IMG/VR virus record: IMGVR_UViG_3300050821_002543
Location: 1-53,716 of that record
Origin: a virus
Strand: one strand, 5' to 3'
Length of the DNA: 53,716 nucleotides
The notes under the pieces were generated by a model. That model had not been told where the DNA came from. It did no database searches and worked only from the letters and a program-made list of their open reading frames with translations. Of this stretch, positions 1,321-30,116 are shown piece by piece; within the stretch, counting starts at the first letter, position 1, and each line of letters opens with the position of its first letter. The position numbers were made by a program, and so were the translations under genes.

Positions 1321-1370
1321 AACCAAAGGCTAACCGAGGTACAGAGTGTTTAGCTATCTAGTATGCTGTG
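1321..1370 (+). promoter_or_regulatory. Compound phage promoter-like element, copy 1
   Basis: Two AACC boxes (AACCAAAG 1321-1328, AACCGAGG 1332-1339) are 11 bp apart, followed after 14 bp by CTATCT (1354-1359). The spacing is identical to the copies at 2610 and 20604. It would transcribe the tRNA and the gene at 1643. The boxes overlap where a -35 element would lie, suggesting an activator site. Confidence 0.6.
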
Positions 1371-1441
1371 AAAACAATGCCTTAAGCTAATTTTGGCTGC
1401 TGAAGTGACTACCTTAGAGAAGGAACGAATACGCTCCTATC

Positions 1442-1518
1442 GGAGCCCTAATTCAATTGGTCAGAAACCAGCTCTCATAAAGCTGCACGTCTCGGTTCGA
1501 ATCCGAGGAGCTCCACCA
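1442..1518 (+). tRNA. tRNA with anticodon CAT (elongator Met or Ile2), CCA encoded
   Basis: A full cloverleaf of 77 nt can be drawn: acceptor GGAGCCC/GAGCTCC with one C-A mismatch, D arm with a GG in the loop, anticodon stem CAGCT/AGCTG around loop CTCATAA, variable region CACGT, T arm CTCGG-TTCGAAT-CCGAG, discriminator A and encoded CCA. Anticodon CAT is at 34-36. The anticodon stem lacks the three G-C pairs of an initiator and the acceptor starts G-C, so it is an elongator Met tRNA or an Ile2 tRNA needing lysidine; sequence alone does not decide. Confidence 0.92.
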
Positions 1519-1581
1519 AGTCGACAAAGACTTTCGACTGGACTTCCATCATAATCAGAATTGTGAATTAGTTTCTCCAAC

Positions 1582-1606
1582 CTCTAGAGGAATGGTTCCT
1601 CTAGGG
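1582..1606 (+). promoter_or_regulatory. Strong hairpin in leader of the 1643 gene
   Basis: CTAGAGGAA (1584-1592) pairs perfectly with TTCCTCTAG (1596-1604) around a TGG loop, extendable by T-G and C-G to 11 bp. No T-run follows. It lies between the tRNA and the next gene, so it may be a processing signal or a translational control structure. Confidence 0.55.
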
Positions 1607-1621
1607 AGGTGGGATCAATCC

Positions 1622-1637
1622 TAGACCGTAAGGTCTA
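1622..1637 (+). promoter_or_regulatory. GNRA-loop hairpin covering the ribosome binding site
   Basis: TAGACC (1622-1627) pairs with GGTCTA (1632-1637) around GTAA, a GNRA-type tetraloop. The only Shine-Dalgarno-like bases (AAGG) for the ATG at 1643 lie in this loop and stem, so translation could be tuned by the hairpin. The internal ATG at 1811 has a better site (GGAGAAG). Confidence 0.45.
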
Positions 1638-1642
1638 AACCG

Positions 1643-2548
1643 ATGTCTGGTGAAGTTCAGGTTCAAGACTCAAATGGTAAACTGCTCACACCAAGTAATC
1701 CAGCAAGAGCTAGGATATTGGTTCGTGAGCACGGAGCCATCTGGGTTACGAACGACCCACCAACAATAAGATTGACACGATCAGTCACCACATCGGAACG
1801 GAGAAGTAATATGTCGGTTAAGACGATTGTGAATTGGACTGAGTTCTTCCGTGAAGAGAAGGACATCTTTGTACAGAATGTGGCTAACGCTCAGATCTCG
1901 CTTTCATTCGAGACTTCGCCAGGTCACACCCAAGGGTTTCTAGTTCCTCATACTAGGGATCCATTCAACCTGACTCAACACATTCCGTTTGACGCTATCA
2001 AAAAGAGCGCTGACTTTCGTCGGATGCTTAATAGGCGTCCTCCTGCTCTCTTGATTCTCGAAGAGAACGAGTATCGAGAGTACTACACTCGTAAGGCTGG
2101 TCCTGGTTCGTCTCCTGAGCAGGCTATGGATGCTGCAGAGATGCGCCGACAAGCCATTCAGAACAAGACCGCGATTAGAGATGTTCCAAAGCCAGAGCCT
2201 ATTCATACTGTAACACAGGATGGGAAGCGACTAGGTGAACACAAGGTTGTCACTTCGAATACTCAGGGCTCTGAGGACGAAGTGATTCATCCGAAGGTTC
2301 TGCATCTTTGTCATCAGGTGAATAACAACGCTATCCCTGATGACAACCAGAAGATGAAGGCAATGGATCTTTTGGAAAATCTCCAAACTCTCGAAGCTGA
2401 GTTGAAACTCGATGATTTCGAGTATATCCGTGCTCATGGGTATTGGAAAACTGTGAAAAACTGGGCAAAGCAGAAGACCGCAGCTATCGCCTCTGAGGAT
2501 GGAGAAGGTGCTGACGATCTTACCGAAAGCGCATCCGCTCCCGCGTGA
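1643..2548 (+). CDS. Virion-region protein with N-terminal PLMP/RRXRR-like motif
   Basis: A 301-residue protein. Residues about 5-48 (VQVQDSNGKLLTP, then ARARILVREHGAIWV and PPTIRL) follow the pattern known as the RRXRR or PLMP domain of IscB-like and some HNH proteins: D-x(2)-GK-PLMP, ARAR-x-LL, then PFTI-x-L. Here LLTP replaces PLMP and no HNH or RuvC nuclease region follows. The rest (WTEFFREEKD onward) is an unrecognised phage protein with an acidic tail. An alternative ATG at 1811 (residue 57) has a stronger ribosome site and would omit the motif; a shorter second product is possible. The family match makes 1643 the preferred start. Function unknown; the capsid-proximal position suggests a head role. 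Confidence 0.75.
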   Translation: MSGEVQVQDSNGKLLTPSNPARARILVREHGAIWVTNDPPTIRLTRSVTTSERRSNMSVKTIVNWTEFFREEKDIFVQNVANAQISLSFETSPGHTQGFLVPHTRDPFNLTQHIPFDAIKKSADFRRMLNRRPPALLILEENEYREYYTRKAGPGSSPEQAMDAAEMRRQAIQNKTAIRDVPKPEPIHTVTQDGKRLGEHKVVTSNTQGSEDEVIHPKVLHLCHQVNNNAIPDDNQKMKAMDLLENLQTLEAELKLDDFEYIRAHGYWKTVKNWAKQKTAAIASEDGEGADDLTESASAPA

Positions 2549-2560
2549 TTCGGTTTGATA

Positions 2561-2599
2561 ATGGCGTCTGGGAGCTTTCTTCTCTCAGACGCCATTTTT
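2561..2599 (+). terminator. Intrinsic terminator
   Basis: ATGGCGTCTGGGAG (from 2561) pairs with CTCTCAGACGCCAT with a single wobble, followed by TTTTT. It closes the transcription unit of the 1643 gene, and the next promoter-like element begins 11 bp later. Confidence 0.92.
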
Positions 2600-2609
2600 G
2601 TGTTTGATA

Positions 2610-2660
2610 AACCAAGGGCTAACCAAGGTTCGGGAGTGCTAGTATACTAGATAGCTAGGG
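2610..2660 (+). promoter_or_regulatory. Compound phage promoter-like element, copy 2
   Basis: Boxes AACCAAGG at 2610-2617 and 2621-2628 are exact repeats 11 bp apart; 14 bp later comes TATACT (2643-2648) inside the perfect 12-bp palindrome CTAGTATACTAG (2639-2650), then ATAGCTA. This is the cleanest copy. It lies between a terminator and the gene at 2679, the expected place for a promoter. Confidence 0.7.
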
Positions 2661-2678
2661 ATTACTGGGAGAGAACGT

Positions 2679-3212
2679 ATGTTTATCGTAGAACGCCGGT
2701 ATTTGCTTCAGATGACAGCTACCACAGATGGTGGTGACGTTATCCTAGTTCCCTGGACATCTGAGGAGCCAGTTCAGAACCTCTCCTGCTGGATCTACTC
2801 TCCTGATCAGGGATCTGAATGTCCTCAACAGGGAGGATTAGCTACTGGTACTACTCCAACCAATCTTGGTGGAGGTAATGCCCAGATCTTTAGAGGGGGA
2901 GTAGGACTTGGTACAGCAACCACTTTCCCATCCGCTCCGAGTCTCTGTCTACCTGCTGATATCATTACAGTAGGTTCAGATACGACGTTTGAGACATTGG
3001 AACCTCAGACATCGGAGAGTGGGGGAACTCTAGGTAGACTACAAGGAATCTACTCGTACAATGGTACGAAGTTGGTTTATGACAATAGTAGTCAAGCGTT
3101 CAAGACTACTAGAATTGCTCCATTCAGCACTTACGTCAAAGTGGTGAACTTGGATTCAACACCTAAGAGTGTAATTGTTCACTGGATTGGTCTTGCGTGG
3201 CGGAACACCTAG
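2679..3212 (+). CDS. Probable virion-associated protein, unknown
   Basis: 177 residues, first gene after promoter copy 2, preceded by GGGAGAG. The sequence is Gly/Thr/Ser-rich and mostly beta-like, without a signal peptide, and ends in hydrophobic-aromatic strands (STYVKVVNLD, VIVHWIGLAW). I recognise no family. Position at the head of a long unit of structural genes suggests a head decoration or accessory protein. Confidence 0.7.
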   Translation: MFIVERRYLLQMTATTDGGDVILVPWTSEEPVQNLSCWIYSPDQGSECPQQGGLATGTTPTNLGGGNAQIFRGGVGLGTATTFPSAPSLCLPADIITVGSDTTFETLEPQTSESGGTLGRLQGIYSYNGTKLVYDNSSQAFKTTRIAPFSTYVKVVNLDSTPKSVIVHWIGLAWRNT

Positions 3213-3220
3213 GAGTAGAC

Positions 3221-3664
3221 ATGAAATTCATCAAGCGTTTCGTTTTTAGTTCCATGATGATGTTCTGCATTTTCATGAGTCTTTCGGCTTTTGCTCAGAA
3301 CATTGTTCCGTCTCAGGCTCCTACTAGCCTAAATCCAACTGCAGTTGTAGCAGTTCTAGCTACCCTGGTTGGTGTTATCAATGCTCTGGTTCAAAACGGT
3401 AAGCTTTTCAATACTTGGGCAGTTGGTGCTCAGTATATGCCAGTCATTACTCTTGTGGGGACGTTTCTGGGTGGGGTTGTGTCCTATTTGAAGCAGCAGG
3501 ATACTCTGGTATTCAATTCTTCAACAATTCTCTACGCTTTTCTTCAGGGAATTTTGATGCTCGTGGTACCAATTGTTCCATCGGCTGTTGCTATGAAAAT
3601 GGGCGGGGTTATGAACAAGAAGCATCTTACTACTCTCAACCCAACGGCAGAAACCTCGAAATAA
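3221..3664 (+). CDS. Multi-pass membrane protein with signal peptide; holin-like candidate
   Basis: The start at 3221 is chosen because AGGAG (3211-3215) precedes it; an upstream in-frame codon at 3197 lacks such a site and would hide the signal. The 147-residue product begins MKFIKRFVF, followed by a hydrophobic core ending SLSAFAQ, a typical Sec signal with an A-x-A cleavage site. Three more hydrophobic segments follow (NPTAVVAVLATLVGVINAL, MPVITLVGTFLGGVVSYL, and one near YAFLQGILMLVVPIV), then a short charged tail. Size, topology and the membrane-anchored neighbour at 3685 suggest a lysis role (holin or antiholin), but no known holin family is recognised and no endolysin is adjacent. Confidence 0.7.
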   Translation: MKFIKRFVFSSMMMFCIFMSLSAFAQNIVPSQAPTSLNPTAVVAVLATLVGVINALVQNGKLFNTWAVGAQYMPVITLVGTFLGGVVSYLKQQDTLVFNSSTILYAFLQGILMLVVPIVPSAVAMKMGGVMNKKHLTTLNPTAETSK

Positions 3665-3684
3665 TCCCTAACTAGAGGAGTCTC

Positions 3685-4209
3685 GTGAGCGCTGAACTTG
3701 CAGCCCTTTTGGTATCAATAGCTGGTTTTGTGGCTGTCACAGCAATCGGCATTATCGGTTATTTTCTCAAACGTACAGTTGATTCAAACGACACTAGAAT
3801 CAAAGCCCTAGAGGATAGTCAAACCGAGGATCTCAAGGAATTTCAAAAGAAGATCGATCGGATCAGATCAGATTTCGAAGGAAAGATCGAGAGGTTTCAA
3901 GAGCGAATTGGTGCAAAGTTCGACAAGGCTACCGAGGATTACTCCAGAACCAGATCTGCTTCATATCACGACATCGACTCAGGAGACGAAAAGCTTCGCC
4001 AAGATCTATCCAACTTTAGGGATCGGATAGAATCTAAGATTAGCTCTTTGGAGCGTGAGTTTCTTGAGTTTAAGGGTAATATGAAGGCTTCTTTCGTTTC
4101 TCGTGAGGATTTCATCCGAGAGAGTACCTTACTCGAGACTCGTATTGTAGCAACCCGTAGAACCCTTGAAGGACTTGATGAGGTTCTGAAAGGGTATGTG
4201 GAGAGATAA
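3685..4209 (+). CDS. Membrane-anchored coiled-coil protein
   Basis: 174 residues starting at GTG after GAGGAG. Residues about 5-28 form one hydrophobic helix (LAALLVSIAGFVAVTAIGII); the rest is a highly charged alpha-helical region with coiled-coil heptads (LEDSQTEDLKEFQKKI, ERFQERIGAKFDKA, later LEREFLEFKGNMKASF). This is an N-in anchored rod facing one side of the inner membrane. With the preceding membrane protein it could form a lysis or membrane-remodelling pair; a spanin-like or superinfection-exclusion role is equally possible. Its stop overlaps the next start. Confidence 0.75.
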   Translation: MSAELAALLVSIAGFVAVTAIGIIGYFLKRTVDSNDTRIKALEDSQTEDLKEFQKKIDRIRSDFEGKIERFQERIGAKFDKATEDYSRTRSASYHDIDSGDEKLRQDLSNFRDRIESKISSLEREFLEFKGNMKASFVSREDFIRESTLLETRIVATRRTLEGLDEVLKGYVER

Positions 4210-4499
4210 TGGTTATGGCCGTAATTGTTTCGGGGAAGGAATGCGCAAATTGCGAACATTACATACCAAGCAAGGTGGATCGCCATGTAGGTGTTTGCGA
4301 AAAATCTAGAACAGTTATTTCAGCAAAATCGACTTGTACTTCTTTCACATCCAAGGTCCGACTAAAACTTGTCCCACCACCAGAAGTGAAAGATGATTTT
4401 GATCCTAGTCATCCTTATCAAAGAGAGTTAGATCTTTGGGATGAAGTAGACGAGGTAGTTCAACGTATCTCGAGGAAACTGAAAAACCTTCATGGCTAA
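4209..4499 (+). CDS. Small four-cysteine zinc-ribbon-like protein
   Basis: 96 residues, beginning one base inside the previous stop codon, with GGAGA just upstream; a second ATG lies two codons in. Four cysteines in the N-terminal half (CANC, then GVC and STC, with HY and SF around) make a C-x2-C-x(n)-C-x(n)-C pattern common in small phage zinc-binding proteins. The C-terminal part is charged and helical. Function unknown. It overlaps the start of the next gene by 8 nt, showing translational coupling. Confidence 0.72.
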   Translation: MVMAVIVSGKECANCEHYIPSKVDRHVGVCEKSRTVISAKSTCTSFTSKVRLKLVPPPEVKDDFDPSHPYQRELDLWDEVDEVVQRISRKLKNLHG

Positions 4500-5622
4500 A
4501 TGGAGATCACTACCTGTTGCGAGTACTACCCAGCAAGGGGTAGTACAGGCTGGCCACGGCATCCAAGTGCCTTCTACGGGGACCTTTGCACAAGCTGTAG
4601 CTACTGCCCAACTTTGGGTTGATCCTAATGGTAATGACACTACTGGGGATGGGTCTTTTGGGAATCCCTGGTTAACTTTATCTCACACGTTTACATACAT
4701 TGTAGCCAACCCACTTTCGAATGGTTACATTGTCCATCTACCACCTGGGAGTTGGGAAGAGGCTGTTCCATTACCACCTAGTGGTACAGTACTGAAAGGT
4801 AGTGACGTTGCTCAATCGTCTCTCGCAGGGGTCTCTGATGTACCTCTCGTGTGGACTCAATCCGTAGGTGATGTTCGAGCTTTGACGTTTCGAGACCTTG
4901 TTTTGTCCGCAGATATTACAGGTGGAAATGCAAGTGGCTCGTCTCTTGCTCTAACCTTCCAGAGGTGTTCTCTCAGTACTTCGGAATTAACGAATGTTGG
5001 TTCTGTACTAATTGATGATTGTAACCCACTTCCAACTTTCACCAATTGTGGTTCAGTTACGATCCAGAACTGTGCTGGTTATGCCGCAGGTCTAAATCTC
5101 GCCTATGACCCACTAACTGCTACCAATGGTTCTTTCTCTCCAGGTCTCCTACTCCTCGGTGGTCAGTGGGGTACAGTTAGTTACACTGTAACTGAATCGG
5201 GGGCTAACCTAGAGATCATTGGTGCTAGAGCCCAGAATGTACAGGGTACGGGGCCTGCTACAATTCAGTGTAGGAATACGCGAGTATTGGGTCAGCTGAA
5301 TGCAGGAGTAGGGTGTGTCATCGAATATGATATGCCTTCCGTAAACAACACTCCAACGTTTGCTGGATCTGGTTCTTTCAAGATGGCTGAGTACATCATC
5401 TTGAAGACTATTTCTCCTGGATTTACAGCTGGACCAGTTACAGTTCCGATACCTACCGATGCGTTTGGTGGTAACCTTACAGATGTTATTGGATCGTCTG
5501 ATCTTCCAGGAACGATTGTAACTTATGTGAGTAACACGACCACTACTCTAACCGTATTTGTTGACCCGGGGACGAGTCCTACCTCGTCCGCACTACACCT
5601 CGTTCTATTGGTGAAACCGTGA
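4492..5622 (+). CDS. Right-handed beta-helix (pectate-lyase-like) virion protein
   Basis: 376 residues. A signature WVDPNGNDTTGDGSFGNPW followed by LSHTFTYI matches the start of DUF1565/pectate-lyase-like parallel beta-helix domains seen in phage fibres and decoration proteins. Short strand-turn repeats follow, then a different C-terminal module (SGSFKMAEYIILKTISPGF) probably for trimer capping. Lying between capsid and tail genes, it may be a head fibre. Enzymatic activity cannot be claimed. It overlaps its neighbours at both ends. Confidence 0.72.
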   Translation: MAKWRSLPVASTTQQGVVQAGHGIQVPSTGTFAQAVATAQLWVDPNGNDTTGDGSFGNPWLTLSHTFTYIVANPLSNGYIVHLPPGSWEEAVPLPPSGTVLKGSDVAQSSLAGVSDVPLVWTQSVGDVRALTFRDLVLSADITGGNASGSSLALTFQRCSLSTSELTNVGSVLIDDCNPLPTFTNCGSVTIQNCAGYAAGLNLAYDPLTATNGSFSPGLLLLGGQWGTVSYTVTESGANLEIIGARAQNVQGTGPATIQCRNTRVLGQLNAGVGCVIEYDMPSVNNTPTFAGSGSFKMAEYIILKTISPGFTAGPVTVPIPTDAFGGNLTDVIGSSDLPGTIVTYVSNTTTTLTVFVDPGTSPTSSALHLVLLVKP

Positions 5623-6269
5623 GTTATACACTCGTTCCAGTTGGTTCAAACGTTCTTTTTCGGTTTCTATTGGTCAGTCAGATAGGAACGGGACTAACTG
5701 GACAGACTCCTGTAGTGGCGATTAAGCGTCGTGCAGATAGTATGTACTGGAATGGAACCGAATGGCAATCAGGGTATATCACCTTGTCCATGACCCAGGA
5801 AGATAGCGTTAATCTTCCCGGCTCTTATGTGTATGGGTTCAACCAAGCAACTGCGGATAGTAGTAACCCAAATGAGTACTTGGTCCGTTACATTAACGCA
5901 GCAGCTCTTCCCAATACTGCTCTAGACGAAGAACAGTGGTTGTTTTCAATCTTTGTTCAGTCGATTAGTCCATCGATTGATGTGGGTCATGCCATGAGTG
6001 ATGATGGTGAGACCTTTACAGCCATCACATGGATTGAAGTTGGAGGGCTACGAGTTACTGACTACACCACGATGTCTGCTCAGATCAAAGACGATCAGGG
6101 AAATGTAGTGCAGAATCTTGGTACAACGAGCTCTCAAACTGCCGATGGTGTCTTTACGTTCTCGTGTCCAGTTGCTGCGGTTTCTCGAAATACTCCTTAC
6201 ATTCTAGCGATACAGGCCATTATTGGAATTACGACTCAAAACTTCAATAAAGGGTTTGTTCGAGTTTGA
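5619..6269 (+). CDS. Beta-rich virion protein
   Basis: 216 residues from a GTG start nested in the previous stop (GTGA). Residues 1-115 contain a pattern common in phage structural proteins: GLTGQTPVVAIKR, a short YWNGTEWQSGY stretch, then LPGSYVYGFNQA and EYLVRYIN, an Ig-like fold of the kind found at the start of baseplate/fibre upper parts. A second beta domain follows (ITWIEVGGLRVTDY). Probably a decoration or fibre-attachment protein. Confidence 0.65.
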   Translation: MSYTLVPVGSNVLFRFLLVSQIGTGLTGQTPVVAIKRRADSMYWNGTEWQSGYITLSMTQEDSVNLPGSYVYGFNQATADSSNPNEYLVRYINAAALPNTALDEEQWLFSIFVQSISPSIDVGHAMSDDGETFTAITWIEVGGLRVTDYTTMSAQIKDDQGNVVQNLGTTSSQTADGVFTFSCPVAAVSRNTPYILAIQAIIGITTQNFNKGFVRV

Positions 6270-6294
6270 CGTAAGTCAATAGAAAACTTCGAAG

Positions 6295-6326
6295 CATACT
6301 AGTTAGCTAGAACGATTGGACCAAGG
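6295..6326 (+). promoter_or_regulatory. Rearranged promoter-like element, copy 3
   Basis: CATACTAGTTAGCTAG (6295-6310) closely resembles the TATACT-box half of the copy at 2643, but its single ACCAAGG box (6320-6326) lies downstream instead of upstream. It sits in a 98-bp gap before the gene at 6368. It may be a degenerate promoter or operator. Confidence 0.4.
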
Positions 6327-6367
6327 TTAGGCTCTGATTACATAGGAGTAATCCTAAGGTACAACCA

Positions 6368-6574
6368 ATGATCGTAAGTAGAACCAACTCTTGGACCGTA
6401 CTTCGTACAGTTCCGGCAAATTTCCAAATGATTGGTGACCTTAACGCCAGATACGTTCAGGCTAGGATTACTGCTCCTGATTCTGAGTGTGTTCCTCAGG
6501 TCATCTCTCCGCCTCATAAAGAGTGTGCTACTGCTCCAGACTGTTCTCCCGATAATCCAGTTAGGACGGTCTGA
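6368..6574 (+). CDS. Small unknown protein, coupled to the next gene
   Basis: 68 residues. Its TGA stop overlaps the ATG of the 401-residue gene in the order TGATG, the usual coupling of real genes here. The C-terminal half has four Cys with Pro (ECVPQV, ECATAPDCSP). No family recognised. Confidence 0.55.
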   Translation: MIVSRTNSWTVLRTVPANFQMIGDLNARYVQARITAPDSECVPQVISPPHKECATAPDCSPDNPVRTV

Positions 6575-7779
6575 TGACTCTACAATCCTTACCAGTCATT
6601 CAGCTAGATCCGGTAATCATCCGAAGAAATGCTGTCCAGAGAGTCTCTATCTCCTTAGTTGACTGCGAAGACAACCCTGTAGACGCCTCTGCATTGACTC
6701 TGAGGGTGTTGGATCCTTCGGATTGTCCAATCTATTGCGAAGATTTCTTTGCTCAGATGTATCTACCATTTGTTCATAGAGTGGTAAAGGTATCTGGAGC
6801 AATTGGTCAATTTTTTATTGATTGGGGCAATACTCAGACTCCTCCGATTGTTCTTGGTGTAGGTGGTTCGTATCCTACTGGATTCGCAGGAGGAGAGACC
6901 CTTCTCATCCAGATTGATAACCAAGTCATTTCAACTGTTTTTCAGTCCACTGATCAGACTCTAACACAAGTTGTTGCTAGGATTAATTCTTTTTGGGGTC
7001 CGATTTGGGGTACTGGTATTGCGTCTATCAACGGTAACCAGATTCAGATCCAAGGGCATCGACCAGGACCTGGCGGTCGCCTAGTTCTACCTACTCCAGG
7101 CACTAGTCCTACGGTTGCAACTACTCTAGGTCTTACGGTTCCTACCATTCTTTATGGAACCCAGAGAATTGGGGAGTCAGACTGTACGAACTGTTTGCTC
7201 TTTGAGTGGACTGCTACTGATGCAACTCATCCTTCTGAACTGACACAAGTTCTTCAGACTGTATATGTTCTTCCTGGTGGTCTATGGAGGATGCTACCTC
7301 AATTGAGGTTGGAGATCGACAAGGCTGTAAAGCTAGTGAGCAAACCAGATGGTATGTTCCTAGGTTATACCGATGCGATGCTCTTCCAGTATCTTTTGGG
7401 AGGTCTACAGTCTATTAACGCCTATCAACCATCAATCTTCTTCACACCGGACAATTTTCCATACCAACAGTTCGGAAGTACTTTAGTAGAAGCAGCTCTT
7501 CTATGGGGAGTAACGTCCCAGACTCTCTTTGCAGTTGATTCCGATGTTCCGTCGTACTCTGATCAAGGTCAGTCTTTCGTTATCAATCATCAAGCTCCTT
7601 TGGCTGCGTATTTGAATAATCTGGCTGCTAGGTTGGATAGAAATATTCCCTTGTTCAAGCTCCACTTTGTAAACACCGGAACTGTACTGACGGAGATGGG
7701 ACCAAGCTTTAGACTCAACATGCTTCTAGATGCTGCTCCATCTGGAGCATTGTTCCGCAACGTATACTTCAAATCCTAA
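6574..7779 (+). CDS. Virion protein with a flagellin/hook-IN-like domain
   Basis: 401 residues. The N-terminal part is an Ig-like strand-rich unit (VQRVSISLVD to LTLRVLDPSDCPIYC). Around residues 100-190 is a domain of the pattern GGETLLIQIDNQVI, LTQVVARIN, ASINGNQIQIQG, then TTLGLTV, matching the recurring domain also present in the sheath and other virion proteins here. The C-terminal half is partly helical (MLPQLRLEIDKAVKLV). Likely structural; exact location in the particle unknown. Confidence 0.68.
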   Translation: MTLQSLPVIQLDPVIIRRNAVQRVSISLVDCEDNPVDASALTLRVLDPSDCPIYCEDFFAQMYLPFVHRVVKVSGAIGQFFIDWGNTQTPPIVLGVGGSYPTGFAGGETLLIQIDNQVISTVFQSTDQTLTQVVARINSFWGPIWGTGIASINGNQIQIQGHRPGPGGRLVLPTPGTSPTVATTLGLTVPTILYGTQRIGESDCTNCLLFEWTATDATHPSELTQVLQTVYVLPGGLWRMLPQLRLEIDKAVKLVSKPDGMFLGYTDAMLFQYLLGGLQSINAYQPSIFFTPDNFPYQQFGSTLVEAALLWGVTSQTLFAVDSDVPSYSDQGQSFVINHQAPLAAYLNNLAARLDRNIPLFKLHFVNTGTVLTEMGPSFRLNMLLDAAPSGALFRNVYFKS

Positions 7780-7791
7780 CTCCGAGGTACC

Positions 7792-8088
7792 ATGAGTTAC
7801 CTATTGCCATTGAAATTGAAAGTTCGAGCCGTTCGACAAAGCAAGGAAATCATTGAATTGGAGTGTGAGGTTCGAGACGCTGAAGACCAAAGTGTTCAAT
7901 CTCTTCCAGTCAGTGTGGGTCCTAAAAGTAGTGCAGCAAACATCTGTGCTATTCTTCAGGGGTATGTTGACACTATTGCTAAATCCCTACATGCCCAAGG
8001 GAAAGCAAAAGTCGGAGAAGTCGGAGATCAGGAAACCGCAATTGAGAAACTTGTCGGACAGGAGTTTCTTGGGAGTATGGCACAATGA
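7792..8088 (+). CDS. Small unknown protein
   Basis: 98 residues, ATG after CGAGG. A beta hairpin-like N terminus (LPLKLKVRAV, IIELECEVRD) is followed by a helix (ICAILQGYVDTIAKSL) and an acidic tail. It overlaps the next gene by 4 nt (ATGA). No family recognised. Confidence 0.7.
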   Translation: MSYLLPLKLKVRAVRQSKEIIELECEVRDAEDQSVQSLPVSVGPKSSAANICAILQGYVDTIAKSLHAQGKAKVGEVGDQETAIEKLVGQEFLGSMAQ

Positions 8089-9215
8089 GCTCGCTATTGG
8101 TTGATTCTCATGGTAAGACTCTGGCTCCGATTAAGGTCGAACTTAAGTCCGTACCTCAAATTGTAATTGGGATCCGTCGTAAAGGGAGACAATACGTTTC
8201 TCGAATTGACCTGACGGATACAATGAAGGGATTCGTCTCTGAAAGTCGAAACCGACGCCTCAGTAAGATGAGCAAGAAGAGTCAGAACCCGGAGCTAGCT
8301 AGAATGCTAGGAGTCTGTGGTATGGCTGCTCGTTTATTTGATCATGGACGAGACGCATTTAACACGAAGCTGATTAGTTGGACTGGTGATACCCAGAAGG
8401 CTCTTTTGCTTGATACCACTGCCTCAGGTACCTGGCTAAAGGAGATCACTGCAGCTACCAACGCCTCACCAGTTGTTTACACTAGTGCGTCTCACGGATT
8501 CTCCAATACTGATGTCCTTGTTGTTGGTGGAATTGGTGGAAATCTATCGGCTAACCAAACTGGTCTAGCAGCCTCTGTTGCGACCAACACATTTGATCTC
8601 ACAACCCTCGAAGGTCAGACTGTAGCTGGTAGTGCAGCCTATACTGCTGGAGGGTATGCTGTTGACTTGACGCAGGCAACGTTCGTTGCTGACATTCTAG
8701 GTAATCGTGTTGGAACCGATCCAACAATCTCTGGTACCTCGTCTTCTAAGGGAATTGCTAACGCAACTTCTCCTATTACGTGGTCCACGGTTCCTTCTGG
8801 TAACGCCGCCCAGGCTGTCCTATTCTATGACGCTGCTGGTGGAACCGATGCATCCAATCGACTCATCGGGTGGCAAGACGGTAAGATTCGAGTTGTTACT
8901 GTAGGTGATACCCCGTCTTCTTCAACGACGATGAAGGTTCAACCTATTCGGGCTCAGCTCTGGGATGGGTCTACTGGTTCTGCTCCAGTGCTCTGGTTTA
9001 GCAATGGATATTCTGTTACTCTCAATGCTGCGGCAGTCCAGGGTGCAGATTCTTTAACGGTAACCTCTACAGGTCATGACATTCCAGATCTGTCGACTGC
9101 TGAAGGTACTGACTTCGGTGGTGGTTTGCCGTTTACACCATCAGGAGGAAACTTCTCGTTTAACATCGGGACGATTTACTTCCCGAATACGCCAACCGGA
9201 ATTTACGTACTGTAA
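8085..9215 (+). CDS. Virion protein with E1-FCCH-like module
   Basis: 376 residues. The N terminus (about 90 residues, basic: SESRNRRLSKMSKKSQ) is followed at about residue 122 by a module reading SPVVYTSASHGFSNTDVLVV, then SVATNTFDLT, the pattern of the ubiquitin-activating-enzyme FCCH-like beta domain common in phage tail and decoration proteins (entering with AHG, leaving with TFxL). The rest is beta-rich (SAPVLWFSNGYSVTLNAAAV). Probably a head or neck decoration protein. Followed by the 9227 gene after an AAGGAGAAGG ribosome site. Confidence 0.68.
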   Translation: MSSLLVDSHGKTLAPIKVELKSVPQIVIGIRRKGRQYVSRIDLTDTMKGFVSESRNRRLSKMSKKSQNPELARMLGVCGMAARLFDHGRDAFNTKLISWTGDTQKALLLDTTASGTWLKEITAATNASPVVYTSASHGFSNTDVLVVGGIGGNLSANQTGLAASVATNTFDLTTLEGQTVAGSAAYTAGGYAVDLTQATFVADILGNRVGTDPTISGTSSSKGIANATSPITWSTVPSGNAAQAVLFYDAAGGTDASNRLIGWQDGKIRVVTVGDTPSSSTTMKVQPIRAQLWDGSTGSAPVLWFSNGYSVTLNAAAVQGADSLTVTSTGHDIPDLSTAEGTDFGGGLPFTPSGGNFSFNIGTIYFPNTPTGIYVL

Positions 9216-9226
9216 GGAGAAGGTTC

Positions 9227-9907: not shown

Positions 9908-9909
9908 TC

Positions 9910-10134
9910 ATGAAAATCACTGTTACTGCCGATCAATTGGATTCTGCCCTTAATGAAGTACCTTCTGAGGTTGGTCTTTACGTATTGGATTCTACTTCTA
10001 CGTACATTACGGATCTCATGGTGTTAGGGAGTGGAGCTGATAACCTATGGTATCACTTGCTTGACAATTACCCTCTAACCACTTACGAGGCTCATGACAT
10101 TACGTCTTTTCAAGTGACTGATATTGGTGACTAA
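9910..10134 (+). CDS. Small acidic protein, unknown
   Basis: 74 residues starting two bases after the previous stop. Very acidic, without Cys, with a beta-like centre (VGLYVLDSTSTYITDLMVLG). Nothing identifies a family. Its tight packing in the operon supports it as a real gene. Confidence 0.6.
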   Translation: MKITVTADQLDSALNEVPSEVGLYVLDSTSTYITDLMVLGSGADNLWYHLLDNYPLTTYEAHDITSFQVTDIGD

Positions 10135-10140
10135 GATCAG

Positions 10141-11537: not shown

Positions 11538-11539
11538 TT

Positions 11540-19573: not shown

Positions 19574-19632
19574 TTAGTGGCTCAAAACCATAGCTAAAAC
19601 ATCTTGCTTTACTTGTCGGGAATTGCAATCAT

Positions 19633-19648: not shown

Positions 19649-19687
19649 CTGATGGAGAACCGAAAACTAGTCACATAGAGACGTCAA

Positions 19688-20140: not shown

Positions 20141-20148
20141 GAGATGTC

Positions 20149-20604
20149 ATGAAATTGTTGACTGTTTTGGTTTTGGTGATTGGAGCTCTGACGTGCTCGG
20201 GTTGCTCCCTACTTTCGCAGGCACAGCAGAATCCTATTGCTTTTGAACAGCAAGTTATTCAAGACACTGAGTTGGCTATTGACGCTGCTCAGGTAGTCTT
20301 CGCTACATTCTTGCCTTCTCTGGGAGCTGCTGGACCTGCAGATCAGACGAAGTTTAATGCCTTGCTTACTGATGTTCAGAACGCAGAGCAGGTATTGGCT
20401 GATGCTGCAACTACAGTTCTTCAGTCGGGATCTAGCGTCGACTTGACCCAGTTGATGGCCAACTTGACAACGACGGTTGATGCCCTCGAAACCTTTATCA
20501 ATGGGTTGAAGAGTTCGGCTGCTAATACGGTTGTACCTAATGCTCTAGACAATGTGGTTATCACACTTCACAAAGTGGTAGCAACCTATCGTAAGCCTAG
20601 TTGA
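20149..20604 (+). CDS. Predicted phage-encoded lipoprotein
   Basis: 151 residues with start MKLLTVLVLVIGALTCSGCS: a lysine, a hydrophobic core and a lipobox-like C-S-G-C, so signal peptidase II processing at Cys19 is likely, though Cys rather than Leu at -3 is atypical. The mature part is helical with Ala/Gln-rich heptads (FEQQVIQDTELAIDAAQVVF, TDVQNAEQVLADAATTVL), suggesting a helical bundle. A lipoprotein inside the tail operon is unusual; a superinfection-exclusion or membrane role is possible. ATG is preceded by AGGAGAT. The compound promoter starts at its stop codon. Confidence 0.75.
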   Translation: MKLLTVLVLVIGALTCSGCSLLSQAQQNPIAFEQQVIQDTELAIDAAQVVFATFLPSLGAAGPADQTKFNALLTDVQNAEQVLADAATTVLQSGSSVDLTQLMANLTTTVDALETFINGLKSSAANTVVPNALDNVVITLHKVVATYRKPS

Positions 20605-20642
20605 ACCAGAGGCTAACCAAGGTTCATAGAGCTTAGTATACT
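20604..20642 (+). promoter_or_regulatory. Compound phage promoter-like element, copy 4
   Basis: AACCAGAG (20604-20611) and AACCAAGG (20615-20622) are 11 bp apart, then 14 bp, then TATACT (20637-20642), with TATAGCT next. The predicted start would be near 20649. It begins at the last base of the lipoprotein gene and precedes the structured RNA and the tail-chaperone operon. Confidence 0.68.
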
Positions 20643-20648
20643 ATATAG

Positions 20649-20760
20649 CTTTGCACCAGATAGTGAAATTACGTCTGGTACAATAAGTAGAGAATCTCCG
20701 AGTAGCAACCTGCTACGATGACGGATTCTAGGGAGCGACGTAAAGTCAGCTCCCTTTTTT
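20649..20760 (+). ncRNA. Structured short RNA or attenuated leader with three hairpins
   Basis: From the predicted start after TATACT to a terminator T-run, about 112 nt contain no ORF and three stacked hairpins. Hairpin 1: ACCAGA (20655-20660) with TCTGGT (20674-20679). Hairpin 2: an outer AGAATC (20691-20696)/GATTCT (20724-20729) pair enclosing GTAGCA (20702-20707)/TGCTAC (20711-20716). Hairpin 3 is the terminator. This layout fits either a small phage RNA or a leader that controls read-through into the tail chaperone and tape-measure genes. No known riboswitch class is recognised. Ends are inferred. Confidence 0.6.
20731..20760 (+). terminator. Intrinsic terminator upstream of the tail chaperone gene
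   Basis: GGGAGC (20731-20736) pairs with GCTCCC (20749-20754), followed by six T. It lies between promoter copy 4 and the chaperone gene, so it either ends a small RNA or acts as an attenuator. Confidence 0.88.
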
Positions 20761-20785
20761 GTGTTCATCCGTTAGGAGATTGGAT

Positions 20786-21358: not shown

Positions 21359-21417
21359 ATTGGCGCTGGCAACAACTCAAGATCAAGGCTAGAGTATGTT
21401 CTGAGAAGCATCTCCTA

Positions 21418-22044
21418 ATGTCGGACCCTCGTTTAAAACACATGACGAGAGTTCGATGGCTTTGGGAAGCTTGGCAATTGAAGTTGAAGGAAGACGCTGA
21501 AGTTACTCGCATTAACAAAACTGGTGAGCAATCCTTCAAGGCTTTTCGAGATATTCTATGCTCTATTCTTGGTACGAATTTGGAACCGATTACACAGTCT
21601 GATGGTACGGTTCGATGGCCAACAGAGGGTGAGTTTACACCGTTGATTTATGCTATTGCACGACCTGACTATCTGAAGTCTGCAATGGAGAAGATCAATA
21701 ACCTAGTAGCAGGTCAGTCGGGTCCTGATCCAGTTGATCCTGAGGCAGAGGGTGGTTACACCGAAGACGATCTTCAATTCTTCGATGAATTGCCTGTTGA
21801 CACTAAGAAAGCTTTCTGGGATAGTCCAGAAATGAAGTCGCAATTGCGACAACTCGTTATCCAGAAAGATCCGAGAACTGTCAATCCGTACGATAAGAAG
21901 CAACCTAAACCTCTAGGTCTTGACGCAGAGTTCGTTAAGCAAATGCAAGAGGAAGACGAGAACTTCGGTCGAAAGAAGAAAGCCAGAATGGAACTTCTGG
22001 AAGAAGACGATATTGACTTTCCACCTGGGTTTGGTATGAAATGA
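21418..22044 (+). CDS. Tail assembly chaperone, T part of a G-T fusion
   Basis: The open frame runs from 21244 to 22044; the ATG at 21418 has only a weak ribosome site. The frame is -1 relative to the upstream gene, and after the slip at 21280 it would add 254 residues to the first 165, a 419-residue fusion. Such G-T fusions bind the tape-measure protein and recruit tube subunits. The T part is helical and acidic (PRLKHMTRVRWLWEAWQL, then a C-terminal lysine/arginine cluster FGRKKKARMELLEEDDID). It overlaps the first tape-measure ATG by 4 nt. Independent initiation at 21418 cannot be excluded. Confidence 0.72.
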   Translation: MSDPRLKHMTRVRWLWEAWQLKLKEDAEVTRINKTGEQSFKAFRDILCSILGTNLEPITQSDGTVRWPTEGEFTPLIYAIARPDYLKSAMEKINNLVAGQSGPDPVDPEAEGGYTEDDLQFFDELPVDTKKAFWDSPEMKSQLRQLVIQKDPRTVNPYDKKQPKPLGLDAEFVKQMQEEDENFGRKKKARMELLEEDDIDFPPGFGMK

Positions 22045-24374: not shown

Positions 24375-24375
24375 T

Positions 24376-25161
24376 ATGGTAGCTCCTGATTTAGCAACTG
24401 CATTCGGTGTTTCCAATCTACTAAAGAGGGGCAATGGAACCGCTATTCGAACAGCGATGGAGATGTCTTGTCTCCTATGGAGAGCTCAGAACCTACCCTC
24501 TCTGAAAATGATGGTTAACCCTCACTCTGTTACTTTCAACCAACCAAAGCGCATTACAAAGAAAAATACACAGGGTGGAACTGTTTACACCCATTGGACT
24601 GATCTAAATGGTCAGAACAATGACATTTTGGAGCTTCAGTTTAAGGGACGCTCTGGAAACATTCGACAACAACCAGATCCAGCCAAAACTGGAATTCTTC
24701 AAAGTGTTGCTAACGGTTTGCAATTAGGAGCTAATGCTCTTACTGGCACTACTGGGGACATGAATACGCCAACTCCCAATCAGGGATTAGCAAAACACAT
24801 AGCTTGGTCTCAGTTGTATCAGTTGACTAGGTTACCAGTTGTAGATCCAGCGACTCGACTAAGGAATGTCTTCGATATCACTTACATCAGTCCGATACTT
24901 CCTAGGCCAGTAGTGTTTCTGGGGTTTTACAATAACGTGCTGAATTTTACGGAAGACGCTGATCGGCCATGGCTGATTGAGTACAGTTACAGTTTCATTG
25001 TACAATCAACTCAACCGTCTCTTGATACTCTCACTCAGATGCTAACCCAACTTCTAAACAGTTCGGCTACAGGATTGGCTGCGTCTGAGATTACAACTTC
25101 TCAAGCCCAACAGTCTTCAACTACTGGAGCTGTTACTGGTGCGAACTTTAAGCAGGGATGA
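24376..25161 (+). CDS. Baseplate-hub or tail-interior structural protein
   Basis: 261 residues between tape-measure paralogues 1 and 2. Residues 45-95 contain NPHSVTFNQPKRITKKNTQG then TVYTHWTDLNGQNNDILELQ and FKGRSGNI, similar to phage hub or tail-adaptor proteins in which a N-P-x-S-x-x-x-x-x-x-K-R-I-T-K segment starts a beta domain. The C-terminal half continues in the same style (GFYNNVLNFTEDADRPWLIE) and ends in a Ser/Thr/Gln-rich tail. It probably belongs to the hub rather than the tape measure. Its stop overlaps the next ATG (ATGA). Confidence 0.62.
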   Translation: MVAPDLATAFGVSNLLKRGNGTAIRTAMEMSCLLWRAQNLPSLKMMVNPHSVTFNQPKRITKKNTQGGTVYTHWTDLNGQNNDILELQFKGRSGNIRQQPDPAKTGILQSVANGLQLGANALTGTTGDMNTPTPNQGLAKHIAWSQLYQLTRLPVVDPATRLRNVFDITYISPILPRPVVFLGFYNNVLNFTEDADRPWLIEYSYSFIVQSTQPSLDTLTQMLTQLLNSSATGLAASEITTSQAQQSSTTGAVTGANFKQG

Positions 25162-27338
25162 AGTCAGTCAATCTACCTACTGAACGATTTCATAGAGCCG
25201 TCACTTGGCTTGGTGAGGCCATCACTAAGTTCAATTCTTCTGAAGAAGGATTGAAAGAGTCGTTAGACGGTCTTAAAGAATCCATTCAATTACAGGATGA
25301 GGTCTCTAAACCGAGCAAGGATGAAGAAGCTCTGATATTCGTAATGGAGCAGAAGAGCGCCTTAGTTAAGGCATCCTCGAGTGTTGGTAAGTTGGCTCCA
25401 CTCCTTGAGGGAACTGAACTAATACCTGGTTTTACGAAGAACAGTGCTTCGGCCTACATTGAACTTCAGAAAGCTCATAAAGATCTTCTTGAGATGCAAG
25501 AAGCTGTTGCTTTAGGCATCATTGACGAAAGGGAGGCTTCAACTGACCTAAAGAAGCTACGTAAATCTCTCGGTATTGCTCAAAGGAAAGCTGAAGGTCT
25601 TCCTGAGGGTGTAGATATGGGAGACGACCTACAAAAGGGTTCTGGCTCTTCTTCTTTGTCAGGTGTAAGCTCTCTCGTTAAAAGTGGTCTTCAAGCCCTT
25701 GGAGGTCAAGTTGGTGGAATAGCCACTGGTTCAATTGGTCTCCTTGGATCCTTACCAGTTGTTGGAGGCCTCTTTGGGTTAATGCTATACGGATTCAAAG
25801 AACGCGATAGAATGAAAGCCCAACTTGGTGAGTTAACCAATATCGCAATTGGAGCAGGAGCAAAGGGTACAGAAGAAGGTGTATCGTGGTTAGCTGGTTT
25901 TCAAGAGCGATCTCAAAACTTCTACGGTATTAGTCGCCAGTCTATTCAAGGCATCTTCAAGACTTTCACGGATGCAGGTATGGCTGTTAATGATATTTTC
26001 AAGCAGCAATCTGCCTCATTAGGTGAAGTTGGTCATGATGCTGTAACTATGACCCTAGGTATGGATCGTGTATTTGAGTTGGGTAATGGAACCACAGCTC
26101 GAAATGCAGCAAAGATCATGAGTTCATACGGTGTTAGTCTAAGTTCGGCTATTGACAGTCTTGTCAATATTGAGTTTGCCGCCAGTAAAGCTGGGTTTGG
26201 AGTAAACACGTTTCTCAATTGGTTGATGCAATCAACCATGCAAGTTCGTAACCTAGGTATTACTACTGATCAGATGGCTGATGCTGCTCTTGAAATGCAG
26301 AGAAAGATGTCTGAGGAGGGTTTTAGTCATTCTCAGACATGGGCAATGCAATCAGTTGGAGAAGCTGCTCAAGGCTTAGCCAATATGGGTACAGGTCGCC
26401 AAATCTGGATGGCAGAAGAGTTAGGTCTTGGAAAGGGTTTGGCTGGTCGACAAAATCTGATGCAAGGGTTTCAAGAAGACCGACCTGAACTCTTTGCAAA
26501 AGCAGCTGGTCTTTATCGAAAAGAAGCCATGCAAGCCACAGGTGGAGATCAGGATGCTTCTTTATTCTATTTGGAACGCTTAGGATTTGGGTTTCAGGGT
26601 GCTAAGGCTATTCTCCACTTAGGTGAGATGGAAGAGAAGGGACTTAAGATCGAGATAGCTAGCTCAGCAGATAAGAAGGCTCTTCGTGAGGCTTTTCAAG
26701 TTGAAGGTAAGAAGAAGAGTAGTATCGGAGAGATGATAAGGGATGCTACTTTAGGTATGGCTAAGATAGGTCAAGGTATCCTTGTTATGCTTTCCAATTT
26801 TTTGGGTTGGATTATTACCTCAGTCAAAGCTATTCCCGTTTTGATGAGTGTAGGTACTCCTGAGCAGAAGCAGATCGTTTACAAGGAACTTGGGGAACGG
26901 TTTGATGGTATGGCTATGGGTTGGAACGATATCCGTATGGGAGGGAAACAAGCTTATGCTGGTATGGCAGGAATAATCAAACCGCTCCTCGCTCCGATTG
27001 ATAAGGCATTCAATTACAAGATGGGTAGCTCTCATCTCGAGAGCAGGGATCCGATTGAGGTTGATATTGAGTCTTTACCAATGGTTGACTCTCCCCCAGG
27101 TCATCAATCTACTCAGGTAGGATTTACTCCTAAGGGTAAACCTCTAAACCCTCATACTAGTTCGGCTTCTGGACCTTCACCTCAAAGTCCAACTTCTACT
27201 GGCGCACCAAATCACTCTTCAACTCCACCACACGGTACGAAAACGTCGTTCTTTGATCCGAAACATGTTCAGGTTATCTGGGCTCCTGGAGCTGATCGAG
27301 CAGATCACCTAACGGTTGAAATTTCTGTAACTACATGA
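25158..27338 (+). CDS. Tape-measure-like protein 2 of 3
   Basis: 726 residues, paralogous to the 22041 product. Shared landmarks in the same order: coiled-coil N terminus, hydrophobic GSIGLLGSLPVVGGLFGLML, DRMKAQLGELTNIA, then KTFTDAGMAVNDIFKQQSA, GHDAVTMTLGMDRVFEL, and LGLGKGLAGRQNLMQGF, a second membrane-type helix (ILVMLSNFLGWIITSVKAI) and a Pro/Ser-rich C terminus. Divergence between copies is large, so the duplication is old. No lytic domain is seen. It overlaps both neighbours by 4 nt, making a translationally coupled block. Confidence 0.76.
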   Translation: MKSVNLPTERFHRAVTWLGEAITKFNSSEEGLKESLDGLKESIQLQDEVSKPSKDEEALIFVMEQKSALVKASSSVGKLAPLLEGTELIPGFTKNSASAYIELQKAHKDLLEMQEAVALGIIDEREASTDLKKLRKSLGIAQRKAEGLPEGVDMGDDLQKGSGSSSLSGVSSLVKSGLQALGGQVGGIATGSIGLLGSLPVVGGLFGLMLYGFKERDRMKAQLGELTNIAIGAGAKGTEEGVSWLAGFQERSQNFYGISRQSIQGIFKTFTDAGMAVNDIFKQQSASLGEVGHDAVTMTLGMDRVFELGNGTTARNAAKIMSSYGVSLSSAIDSLVNIEFAASKAGFGVNTFLNWLMQSTMQVRNLGITTDQMADAALEMQRKMSEEGFSHSQTWAMQSVGEAAQGLANMGTGRQIWMAEELGLGKGLAGRQNLMQGFQEDRPELFAKAAGLYRKEAMQATGGDQDASLFYLERLGFGFQGAKAILHLGEMEEKGLKIEIASSADKKALREAFQVEGKKKSSIGEMIRDATLGMAKIGQGILVMLSNFLGWIITSVKAIPVLMSVGTPEQKQIVYKELGERFDGMAMGWNDIRMGGKQAYAGMAGIIKPLLAPIDKAFNYKMGSSHLESRDPIEVDIESLPMVDSPPGHQSTQVGFTPKGKPLNPHTSSASGPSPQSPTSTGAPNHSSTPPHGTKTSFFDPKHVQVIWAPGADRADHLTVEISVTT

Positions 27339-30064
27339 AAGCGATTACTCAAACAAATAACTTGGGAGAAGCGATTAGCTTCTTCAACCTCAAGGCAGAT
27401 AGGCTTGAGAAGGTGTTTGAGGAAGCTAAGAAGTATTCTAAGACTCTCACAGAGATGAGGGTTCAAATTCGTGATTTGAAGAAACGTCCTCTTCCTCCTG
27501 ATGGGCCTGAGGAAGGTATGGGTGGTTATTCTGCTGAAGAAATTCGCTTTCTAGAAGAGATAGAAGCAAAATCAAGAGGGTTGTCTATCTCAGCAGGAGT
27601 AGAGACCTTATCAACCGATTTGGCTAGAGTGTCTCTCCAATTGGCGGAGATAGACGAGTCATTTTCTCGAGGAATCATCACAGAAAAAGAACATAAACAT
27701 GCTCTCGAAAAAGTAAAGGTTGAGTGGGAGCATATCCATGAGACTACCACAAGCCTTTTGGGAGTAGATTTACGACCATCCCATTTGGCTAAGGAAGGGG
27801 CGTCGAAAATTGGTTCTGGAGCTTTGGGTCAACTAACAGGAGTTGCTTCAGGTGTAATGGGATTGATGTCCTCTTTACCAATTGCTGGAGGACTCTTTGG
27901 TCTTCTCATGTATGGGTATTCTCAAGCCGATAGACTAAAAGCAGAATCAGGAGAGATGTTGAACGTTCTCGTTTCAGGAGGCCAAGCAACGTCCCAACCA
28001 TTCCTAAATCATCTTTCGGGACTCGGAGAGAAATTTCAACAGTTCTATGGCATCAGTCGTCGAGAGGTTCAAGGAATTGTCAAGGAGTTCATCTCTGGAG
28101 GGGCTACGATTGAAGATTTGATGCAAACAACACACCGAAATCTTGGTGAAGTAGGACAAGATGTTGTTACAATGACAATTGGTCTTGACAAGATGTTCGA
28201 ACTTGCGTCAGGAAGTTCAGCGAAGTTAGCCCAAGCCTTAGTAGAAGATCATGGAGTGAAACTAGGAACAGCAGTTGATCAGTTGATTCGAATAGAGTTT
28301 GCTGGCAGTCGTGCTGGAGCAGGTGTTGGAACCTTCACTGAATTCGTGGTTAAGACAGCTGGAGAGCTACAGAATTTTGGAATCGGAGGAGAATCTGTAG
28401 CAGCAAGTCTCGTTTCTCTTCAAGAACGCTATCATACCGTAGCTGGTTTGAATGTCCAAACATCGATAGCCTATGCCCAACTGGGTATGAGTCAAGTAAG
28501 TCAAGGAGTTCAAGGTCTGAATTTTGGATTAAAATCAACTGTTGGTGAGTTGATGGGTTACGGTACTGGATTTGGAGCTGCTACTGGTTTACAGGATGCT
28601 ATTGCTTCCAATGATCCGAATCAGTTAGTTAAGCTAATAAAAGCTTTGAACACTCTGGCTGCTAGAGAAACAGAAGGTACCGGAGGAAGTTCCAATGATA
28701 CCATTAGACAAAGGGCTTATTTAGAGTCAATTGGAATGGGTGCAGAAGGTGCTCGAGCTTTGACTGAGTTAGCCAAATTACACGGAGGAAGGTCCAATCT
28801 ACAAAATCTCACTGCGAAAGAGCTAGCTGAGTTTAGGGAGACCCTAAAGACAGAAGCTCAGAAGCAGAGTGAGATGACCCAAAACATTCATGAGGTACTT
28901 AAGGGAATGGCTGGAATGGGTCAATCCATTCTCAAACTTGCTGCTGACTTTGCCGGACTTTTGATTGTAACCATCAAAGGTATGATGGCGACCGAAGCTC
29001 TGGATTGGATGGGGCATCTTGGTAAGGCAGCTGCAGATGGAATTGTTAGTACGTTCAAAGATTTGACAGGGTGGGATCTATCAGATAAAACAGCACCATT
29101 CAAAGCTAAGACCGATGTGGATAAGGCTGTTCAAGGACAATTCGATTTCTATCTCAAATCAATTAGCGGAGATTTCTCGGACTTACTAAAGGGTACATCT
29201 CAAGTTGGAACTGGAATCAGCAAAGTAGCTCTCCCATTGATAACACCGATTGTACATGCCTTCAAAGAAATGGGAGTACCCTCCGATTGGGCAGATCCGC
29301 AAGCTTCGACTCCAGAATCGAGAACTCGTTCTGAGAAGGGACCACATTACGCAGCCCCAGAAGGACCTAAGCAAACTCAAAGCGGAGACTTCTGGACACA
29401 ATTTGTTGTTATGAGCAATCGACTAGGAGTTAAGCCAGAAGAATTACTGAAGGTGTTTAACTCGGAAAGCGGATTCAATTCTCATACTGTTGCATATCGA
29501 GATTCCCACGGCAGGGCAACTAAGAAGGATGATCCAGACGCTCATGCTGTAGCCAAAGGTATTCAGCAGCTTACGTGGGAAACTGCTAGAGGATTAGGCA
29601 TGCCCAAGGAAGTATGGGACAACTTCGAGAACGTTAGTCCGCAAGAGCAACTAAAGTATGTTGAGCGATATTACTCGGGTAGAGCTGCTGGAAAGAATGC
29701 GGCTGAAATATATGCGATGAACTTCGGTGGATACAACAATCCGAATGGTTCTCTATATGACCGAGACGCTCGATCGAAAGGTTATCACAATCCAGGGTTT
29801 CAAGAGATCGCCTATCGATCTAATCAAGGATTGGATCGTGATCATAAAGGGTATATCACAGCAGAGGACCTTGCTCGAAATCTCTCAAAGGTTAGTGCCT
29901 CTCAGCAGGCAGCTTTAACCAAAGTTCGCCACACTTTGGGAATGTCAGAAACAGGTAAAGCTATTCCTGATCCATTAGATCCAGTTTTAGTAGCTGAGGT
30001 TAAGGCTACCAAAACTTCGGCAGGAGTCAACCAAGTGACACTATCTTTGGAGGTTCACCAGTGA
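27335..30064 (+). CDS. Tape-measure-like protein 3 of 3 with lytic-transglycosylase-like domain
   Basis: 909 residues. The first ~640 match the other two copies (GVMGLMSSLPIAGGLFGLLM, DRLKAESGEMLNVL, GQDVVTMTIGLDKMFEL). Residues about 684-820 are an added domain of soluble lytic transglycosylase type: VFNSESGFNSHT with a probable catalytic Glu711, AKGIQQLTWETARGLG, and MNFGGYNNPNGSLYDRDA. Then comes a Ca-binding EF-hand-like loop, DRDHKGYITAED at 834-845. The domain would cleave peptidoglycan during tail penetration. A promoter-like element follows the stop. Confidence 0.82.
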   Translation: MKAITQTNNLGEAISFFNLKADRLEKVFEEAKKYSKTLTEMRVQIRDLKKRPLPPDGPEEGMGGYSAEEIRFLEEIEAKSRGLSISAGVETLSTDLARVSLQLAEIDESFSRGIITEKEHKHALEKVKVEWEHIHETTTSLLGVDLRPSHLAKEGASKIGSGALGQLTGVASGVMGLMSSLPIAGGLFGLLMYGYSQADRLKAESGEMLNVLVSGGQATSQPFLNHLSGLGEKFQQFYGISRREVQGIVKEFISGGATIEDLMQTTHRNLGEVGQDVVTMTIGLDKMFELASGSSAKLAQALVEDHGVKLGTAVDQLIRIEFAGSRAGAGVGTFTEFVVKTAGELQNFGIGGESVAASLVSLQERYHTVAGLNVQTSIAYAQLGMSQVSQGVQGLNFGLKSTVGELMGYGTGFGAATGLQDAIASNDPNQLVKLIKALNTLAARETEGTGGSSNDTIRQRAYLESIGMGAEGARALTELAKLHGGRSNLQNLTAKELAEFRETLKTEAQKQSEMTQNIHEVLKGMAGMGQSILKLAADFAGLLIVTIKGMMATEALDWMGHLGKAAADGIVSTFKDLTGWDLSDKTAPFKAKTDVDKAVQGQFDFYLKSISGDFSDLLKGTSQVGTGISKVALPLITPIVHAFKEMGVPSDWADPQASTPESRTRSEKGPHYAAPEGPKQTQSGDFWTQFVVMSNRLGVKPEELLKVFNSESGFNSHTVAYRDSHGRATKKDDPDAHAVAKGIQQLTWETARGLGMPKEVWDNFENVSPQEQLKYVERYYSGRAAGKNAAEIYAMNFGGYNNPNGSLYDRDARSKGYHNPGFQEIAYRSNQGLDRDHKGYITAEDLARNLSKVSASQQAALTKVRHTLGMSETGKAIPDPLDPVLVAEVKATKTSAGVNQVTLSLEVHQ

Positions 30065-30077
30065 AACCTTCTGATAA

Positions 30078-30116
30078 AACCGAGGCTAACCAAGTTCTAG
30101 CAACGACAAGCTATCT
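30078..30116 (+). promoter_or_regulatory. Compound phage promoter-like element, copy 5
   Basis: AACCGAGG (30078-30085) and AACCAAG (30088-30094) are 10 bp apart, followed 15-16 bp later by CTATCT (30111-30116) and TATAGCTAGG. It lies in the 71-bp gap between the third tape-measure gene and the hub gene, and would begin the baseplate operon. Confidence 0.6.

Follow-up and report, generated by a model that had tools for sequence, protein, structure and literature searches.

A DNA element of about 55 bp recurs between genes, in both orientations, in the window analyzed here (a 53.7-kb IMG/VR virus record taken over its full length) and in its best long relative, the 183-kb contig G001. The element consists of two ACC-type boxes whose spacing is one helical turn (10–11 bp at the copies termed S1–S4), a gap of 12–13 bp after box 2, and a 16-bp imperfect dyad with the consensus AGCTANCTAGNTAGCT, and it is the dyad that keeps a fixed phase across all copies. 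The mixed orientation of the copies is the main new result. We tentatively favor, with slightly less than even confidence, the reading that the sites form a distributed operator-like control element for a phage regulator, with promoters embedded in some copies.

The window carries the structural module of a large phage with a contractile tail and is probably a fragment of the phage genome, and all 44 of the 44 genes selected in it run rightward. An 8-kb stretch of the window had no DNA match among 50,697 phage records. Among named relatives by capsid, Virus Rctr197k is the nearest (73%), and the capsid of G001 is 80% identical, with gene order conserved. A capsid gene with 75% identity also occurs in a contig that binning assigned to an Actinomycetes MAG (L094), a weak hint that the host group may be Actinomycetes. 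We know of almost no transcription biology for large phages of this capsid lineage, and no earlier report of the element was found within the sequence collections and literature that we searched. The element offers a handle on the gene program of a large uncultured phage and bait for its master regulator. The copies in the window and the features around them are as follows.

103–1095: major head protein gene, phrog_2522
1318–1371, plus strand: copy S1; boxes 1321–1328 and 1332–1339, dyad 1352–1367; model E 3e-12, training member
1442–1518, plus strand: tRNA-Met (CAT), 3′ of copy S1
2560–2596, plus strand: intrinsic terminator just upstream of copy S2
2605–2660, plus strand: copy S2; boxes 2610–2617 and 2621–2628, dyad 2641–2656; start codon at 2679
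6289–6340, minus strand: inverted copy; dyad 6293–6308, minus-strand box TAACCTTGG 12 bp from the dyad
20604–20653, plus strand: copy S3; boxes 20604–20611 and 20615–20622, dyad 20635–20650
20649–20766, plus strand: putative structured RNA directly 3′ of S3, with a GC stem and T-run at its end
30072–30128, plus strand: copy S4; boxes 30078–30085 and 30088–30095, dyad 30109–30124; start codon at 30136
35240–36673: baseplate wedge gene
41491–41541, minus strand: inverted copy; dyad 41492–41507 overlaps the stop codon of gene 36685–41493; start codon at 41552
52408–52452, listed on the minus strand: weak copy; dyad 52408–52423, orientation uncertain
52570–52597, plus strand: sigma70-like promoter TTGATT-16-TATGAT, of a class also repeated 18 times in G001

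S1–S4 had been put forward in the original prediction as a promoter class, and its account of their layout held in part. Paired AACC-type boxes 10–11 bp apart lie at 1321/1332, 2610/2621, 20604/20615, and 30078/30088, all four sites are intergenic, and two of them adjoin terminators as had been claimed: S2 follows the terminator at 2560–2596, and S3 precedes the folded RNA with its stem and T-run, which a simple terminator scan did not list. The set of four was incomplete, since the inverted copies at 6289–6340 and 41491–41541 and the weak copy at 52408 had been missed. The copy at 6289–6340 is detected with p 0.0001 by a module trained on S1–S4 and with E 0.003 by R2, a model whose training copies were all forward. 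The copy at 41491–41541 scores p 0.00025 with the S1–S4 module and is missed by R2; plus-strand "tandem boxes" at 41509 were reassigned as part of this inverted copy. The weak copy at 52408 matches on the minus strand at E 0.016 with R1, a sequence-only model built from 12 copies of the element, whereas a window-trained module prefers the plus strand (p 0.002). Dyads at 8293 in the window and at 79436 in G001 (the latter one PWM match) lie within genes and were set aside.

Several other features lie around S1. A homing-endonuclease-like frame starts at 1232–1302 and is broken off just before S1; the frame continues in the contig L007. PF14239, the RRXRR (IscB-type PLMP) domain, was matched at E 6e-6 in one of the window proteins scanned together; its sequence (SNPARARILVREHGA) would put it at the start of a 301-aa gene (1643–2548) between S1 and S2. 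Just upstream of this gene is a folded GGTGGGATCAATCC stretch (region 1519–1760, z −2.8), and G001, L013, and L042 have similar stretches 3′ of their capsid genes. Eight short IMG/VR contigs (L005–L011 and L019; 2.1–2.7 kb) hold the gene before the capsid, the capsid gene, and little else. L005 is 100% identical to window positions 1–1164, and none of the eight crosses an element site; their form is suggestive, though only that, of assembled transcripts.

The recurrence of the element is real and far from chance. Box 2 with its downstream motif at fixed spacing was observed four times, compared with a mean of 0.027 and a maximum of one in 300 dinucleotide shuffles, and box pairs numbered 8 (overlapping alignments counted) versus 0.98 expected in shuffles. 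Dyads with at most two mismatches numbered four in the window versus 0.17 expected. Intergenic DNA makes up only about 5–7% of the window and of G001, and all model-supported copies lie between genes. A blind pairwise comparison of intergenic DNA recovered the element in both phages, inverted pairs included. These figures are to be read with the relatedness of sequence within each genome, which inflates the likeness among copies, and with the carriers being two genomes only.

In G001, the dyad recurs between genes at 51712, 91715, 117043, and 141774; none was found in 18 other records. When oriented, the window and G001 copies align as one element of 55–57 bp with a mean column identity of 65%. 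G001 has its own dialect, with a box 1 beginning GGTAAACCTG, a box 2 containing AGTTCTAG, and the dyad ACGTAGCTATATAGTTAGCTGTG, and its copy at 37.75 kb retains TAAACCTGTCTCTAACCAAGG, near-identical to the tandem box of the window. Because each phage shows a joint drift of its boxes and dyad, the phage-specific dialect suggests a co-evolving DNA-binding regulator. In leave-one-out trials, a module trained on G001 failed on most window copies and on the G001 copy at 85706. Corresponding intergenic positions are occupied in both phages at window dyads 1352, 6293, 30109, and, weakly, 52408.

Searches over a wider range of sequence bear on how far the element extends. R1 finds 16 modules in the 237 kb of the window and G001, with no other match up to E 5. 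Over 0.75 Mb from other capsid relatives it gave nothing better than E 0.07, and over nine further records, in a search run without a positive control, it gave no match. Enrichment beyond the window, on which the original prediction depended, was seen in G001, in a diverged form; the exact motif was absent from IMG/VR. Related-locus scans with the genes adjacent to the sites either were empty or gave G001 alone or a single weak match that looked unrelated.

Of the 16 modules, 9 are forward and 7 are inverted, with window 52411 a weak member of the inverted set (E 0.016), and the genes that flank the modules all run rightward. The S1–S4-trained module scores the minus-strand flank and not the plus-strand flank at 6293 and 41492 in the window and at 21922 (p 0.0002) and 37753 (p below 0.00005) in G001. 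R2, whose training copies all point forward, picks up inverted ones at E 7e-7, 2e-4, 6e-4, 0.003, and 0.008, and its output up to E 10 consists exclusively of element copies. The G001 copy at 91.7 kb matches on both strands with boxes on either side, neither match having been in training, and the counterparts window 30109 and G001 117043 face opposite ways. A contrast in orientation is provided by the sigma70-like promoter family CTTGATTTC-N-ATCATTATGATCATTGTATG, which is highly uniform across G001 (L052–L060, e.g., L053:13093) and window 52570. Its members all point forward (18/18 in G001 and 1/1 in the window, 19/19 together), compared with 9:7 for the element (Fisher's exact p about 0.002, hand-computed).

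Is the element a promoter? The downstream hexamers TATACT and CTATCT are its presumed −10 sequence. TATACT is present at S2 and S3, but the CTATCT of S1 and S4 matches TATAAT at one position in six, and S4 has no −10-like hexamer. Rather than standing at a fixed place, as had been supposed, −10-like hexamers slide relative to the dyad, with offsets of 2, 3, 4–5, or 10; the offset is 2 for S2 and S3, 3 for the G001 copy at 85706, 5 for several G001 copies, and 10 for S1 as well as for the inverted copies of the window. That box 2 takes the place of a −35 fits S2 and S3, where no sigma70 −35 stands upstream of TATACT at the spacing one would expect, but not a presumed −10 that is unfixed. TTGAC near the dyad was considered as a −35 at 85706, 91715, and 141774 in G001 and at 6293 in the window, where no −10 stands at normal spacing, and was assigned to the G001 box dialect. 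Of the predicted promoter class, what survives is that it is compound, phage-specific, and non-chance; its single direction does not, given 7 of 16 modules inverted relative to rightward genes. We consider promoter activity likely in some forward copies, S2 and S3 among them, but it does not define the element, given that copies are inverted and that no −10 is fixed. S1, also forward, stands ahead of a tRNA gene, which speaks for a promoter there. Between S3 and the gene at 20759 lies the 118-nt RNA 20649–20766 (z −4.5; a fold this good in 0 of 200 shuffles), which belongs to no Rfam family, and S3 with this RNA makes a compact unit that suits a promoter of its own.

A unidirectional compound promoter would explain these forward copies: a phage activator, or a factor resembling sigma, would bind the boxes and bring the host RNA polymerase to a −10 in the dyad, and inverted copies would be antisense or decayed. 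S2 follows a terminator with a gene starting 22 nt past its dyad, S3 begins a structured RNA unit, and this is the placement of ordinary promoters, which counts against the operator reading. The G001 copies at 51.7, 85.7, and 141.8 kb stand 53–75 bp upstream of sigma70-like promoters, and among the G001 proteins is a small one that matches sigma region 4 weakly. The near-even split of orientations, set beside the uniformly forward sigma70-like promoters, and the sliding or missing −10 argue the other way, and we regard this explanation as possible but doubtful. A variant would accommodate the inverted copies as promoters whose direction can be selected: the near-symmetric 16-bp core would admit the host RNA polymerase from either side, the side bearing the boxes would set the direction, and one phage factor would control both sense and antisense late transcription, the double-sided copy at 91.7 kb being included. 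We give this variant only a slim chance; should the inverted copies act as promoters, the late program would include regulated antisense transcription as an inherent part.

The remaining explanations do without a promoter. The element could be a mobile intergenic cassette that spreads in either orientation in the manner of T4-type promoter/stem-loop cassettes, which would account for copies facing both ways and filling short gaps, for an occupied site at window 41492 where G001 has a start/stop overlap, and for the extra downstream sequence that three G001 copies have in common. The copies are, however, strongly diverged (65% identity) while the positions of boxes, spacing, and dyad are kept, which points to selection on function, and no hairpin is conserved; we think a cassette improbable. 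About as improbable, or slightly more so, is a non-transcriptional DNA site serving, for example, replication initiation, segregation, or packaging. The orientation tolerance and genome-wide spread of the element suit such a site, and G001 has DnaA-domain and HU-like proteins, but the ties to gene starts and unit borders, with S2 and S3 beside terminators, speak against it. A site acting in RNA, for antitermination or processing, with the phage NusG paralogue as partner, would recall nut-type sites in its linear box and palindrome. Pairing between the palindrome arms, at 68.1%, is less conserved than the shuffled mean of 75.3%, there is no compensatory pairing, and inverted copies would give a different RNA, so the RNA hairpin was rejected and we hold this reading to be very unlikely. 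Because the hairpin is not conserved, we read the dyad as DNA, and each half-site decays on its own, as expected of a DNA-binding dimer.

For the operator-like element that we favor, a phage-encoded DNA-binding regulator would occupy the sites, its subunits sitting on the direct boxes and a dimer on the dyad, and would act at several transcription units via the host RNA polymerase. Since the copies face both ways and one G001 copy is double-sided, the element would not be a one-way promoter but an operator or activator platform that tolerates either orientation, and some forward copies, for example S2 and S3, would overlap or embed a promoter. The predicted activator gene is not recognizable among the proteins of the window, which is part of a genome. 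In G001, weak candidates for the regulator may be a 145-aa protein whose C-terminus is weakly like sigma region 4 (its Pfam match, E 1e-4, falls short of the curated cut-off), a NusG paralogue (L054:18966–19601; another is found in G006, L072), and the DnaA-domain protein. For a T7-type RNA polymerase, no PF00940 match was seen in 12 relatives, where the controls were also silent, and none is among the listed Pfam families of G001; no match to MotA or AsiA was seen. G001 also has a tmRNA gene (L060:10542–10901, tag ANDNVELSEAAEAA), five tRNAs in L054, and, across L055, L056, L059, and L060, queuosine-type genes for QueC, QueD, and QueE and a gene for a protein with a Tad2-like (Thoeris anti-defence) domain.

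Among known systems, the element in part resembles the T4 middle promoters, which use a phage factor with the host polymerase, sigma being appropriated by MotA and AsiA. There a MotA box stands in for the −35 and lies 12 ± 1 bp away from the −10 (PMC2988021), a spacing similar to the 12–13 bp between element box and dyad. Those promoters carry a single box and a good −10 in a fixed place, unlike the two boxes, dyad, sliding or absent −10, and both orientations seen here. More generally, sites of the MotA, Mor, or Ogr type would match the direction of their genes and hold a −10 at a fixed distance from the activator box; some forward copies fit the former, but the copies overall do not, and no such fixed distance was found. 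The T4-type PeSL cassettes are small intergenic regulatory cassettes thought to be mobile (Arbiol et al. 2010, cited in PMC3950731), and they differ from the element, which has neither a conserved stem-loop nor an internal sigma70 early promoter. Mycobacteriophage stoperators (20–30 sites per genome of 13–14 bp, without dyad symmetry, predominantly following transcription; PMC6550527) are likewise scattered and lineage-specific in sequence, but the element has a dyad core and mixed orientation. In its working, the element is most like SPBRE of SP-beta, a 15-bp motif in a prophage whose regulator MrpR is a repressor with a tyrosine-recombinase fold and the master regulator (PMC10516654). The architecture is different, and G001 shows no integrase-family (PF00589) protein where controls match in 14/14. 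The placement is the same, however, since both are repeated, intergenic, and spread over the genome, and SPBRE was itself predicted in silico long before MrpR was found (PMC10516654).
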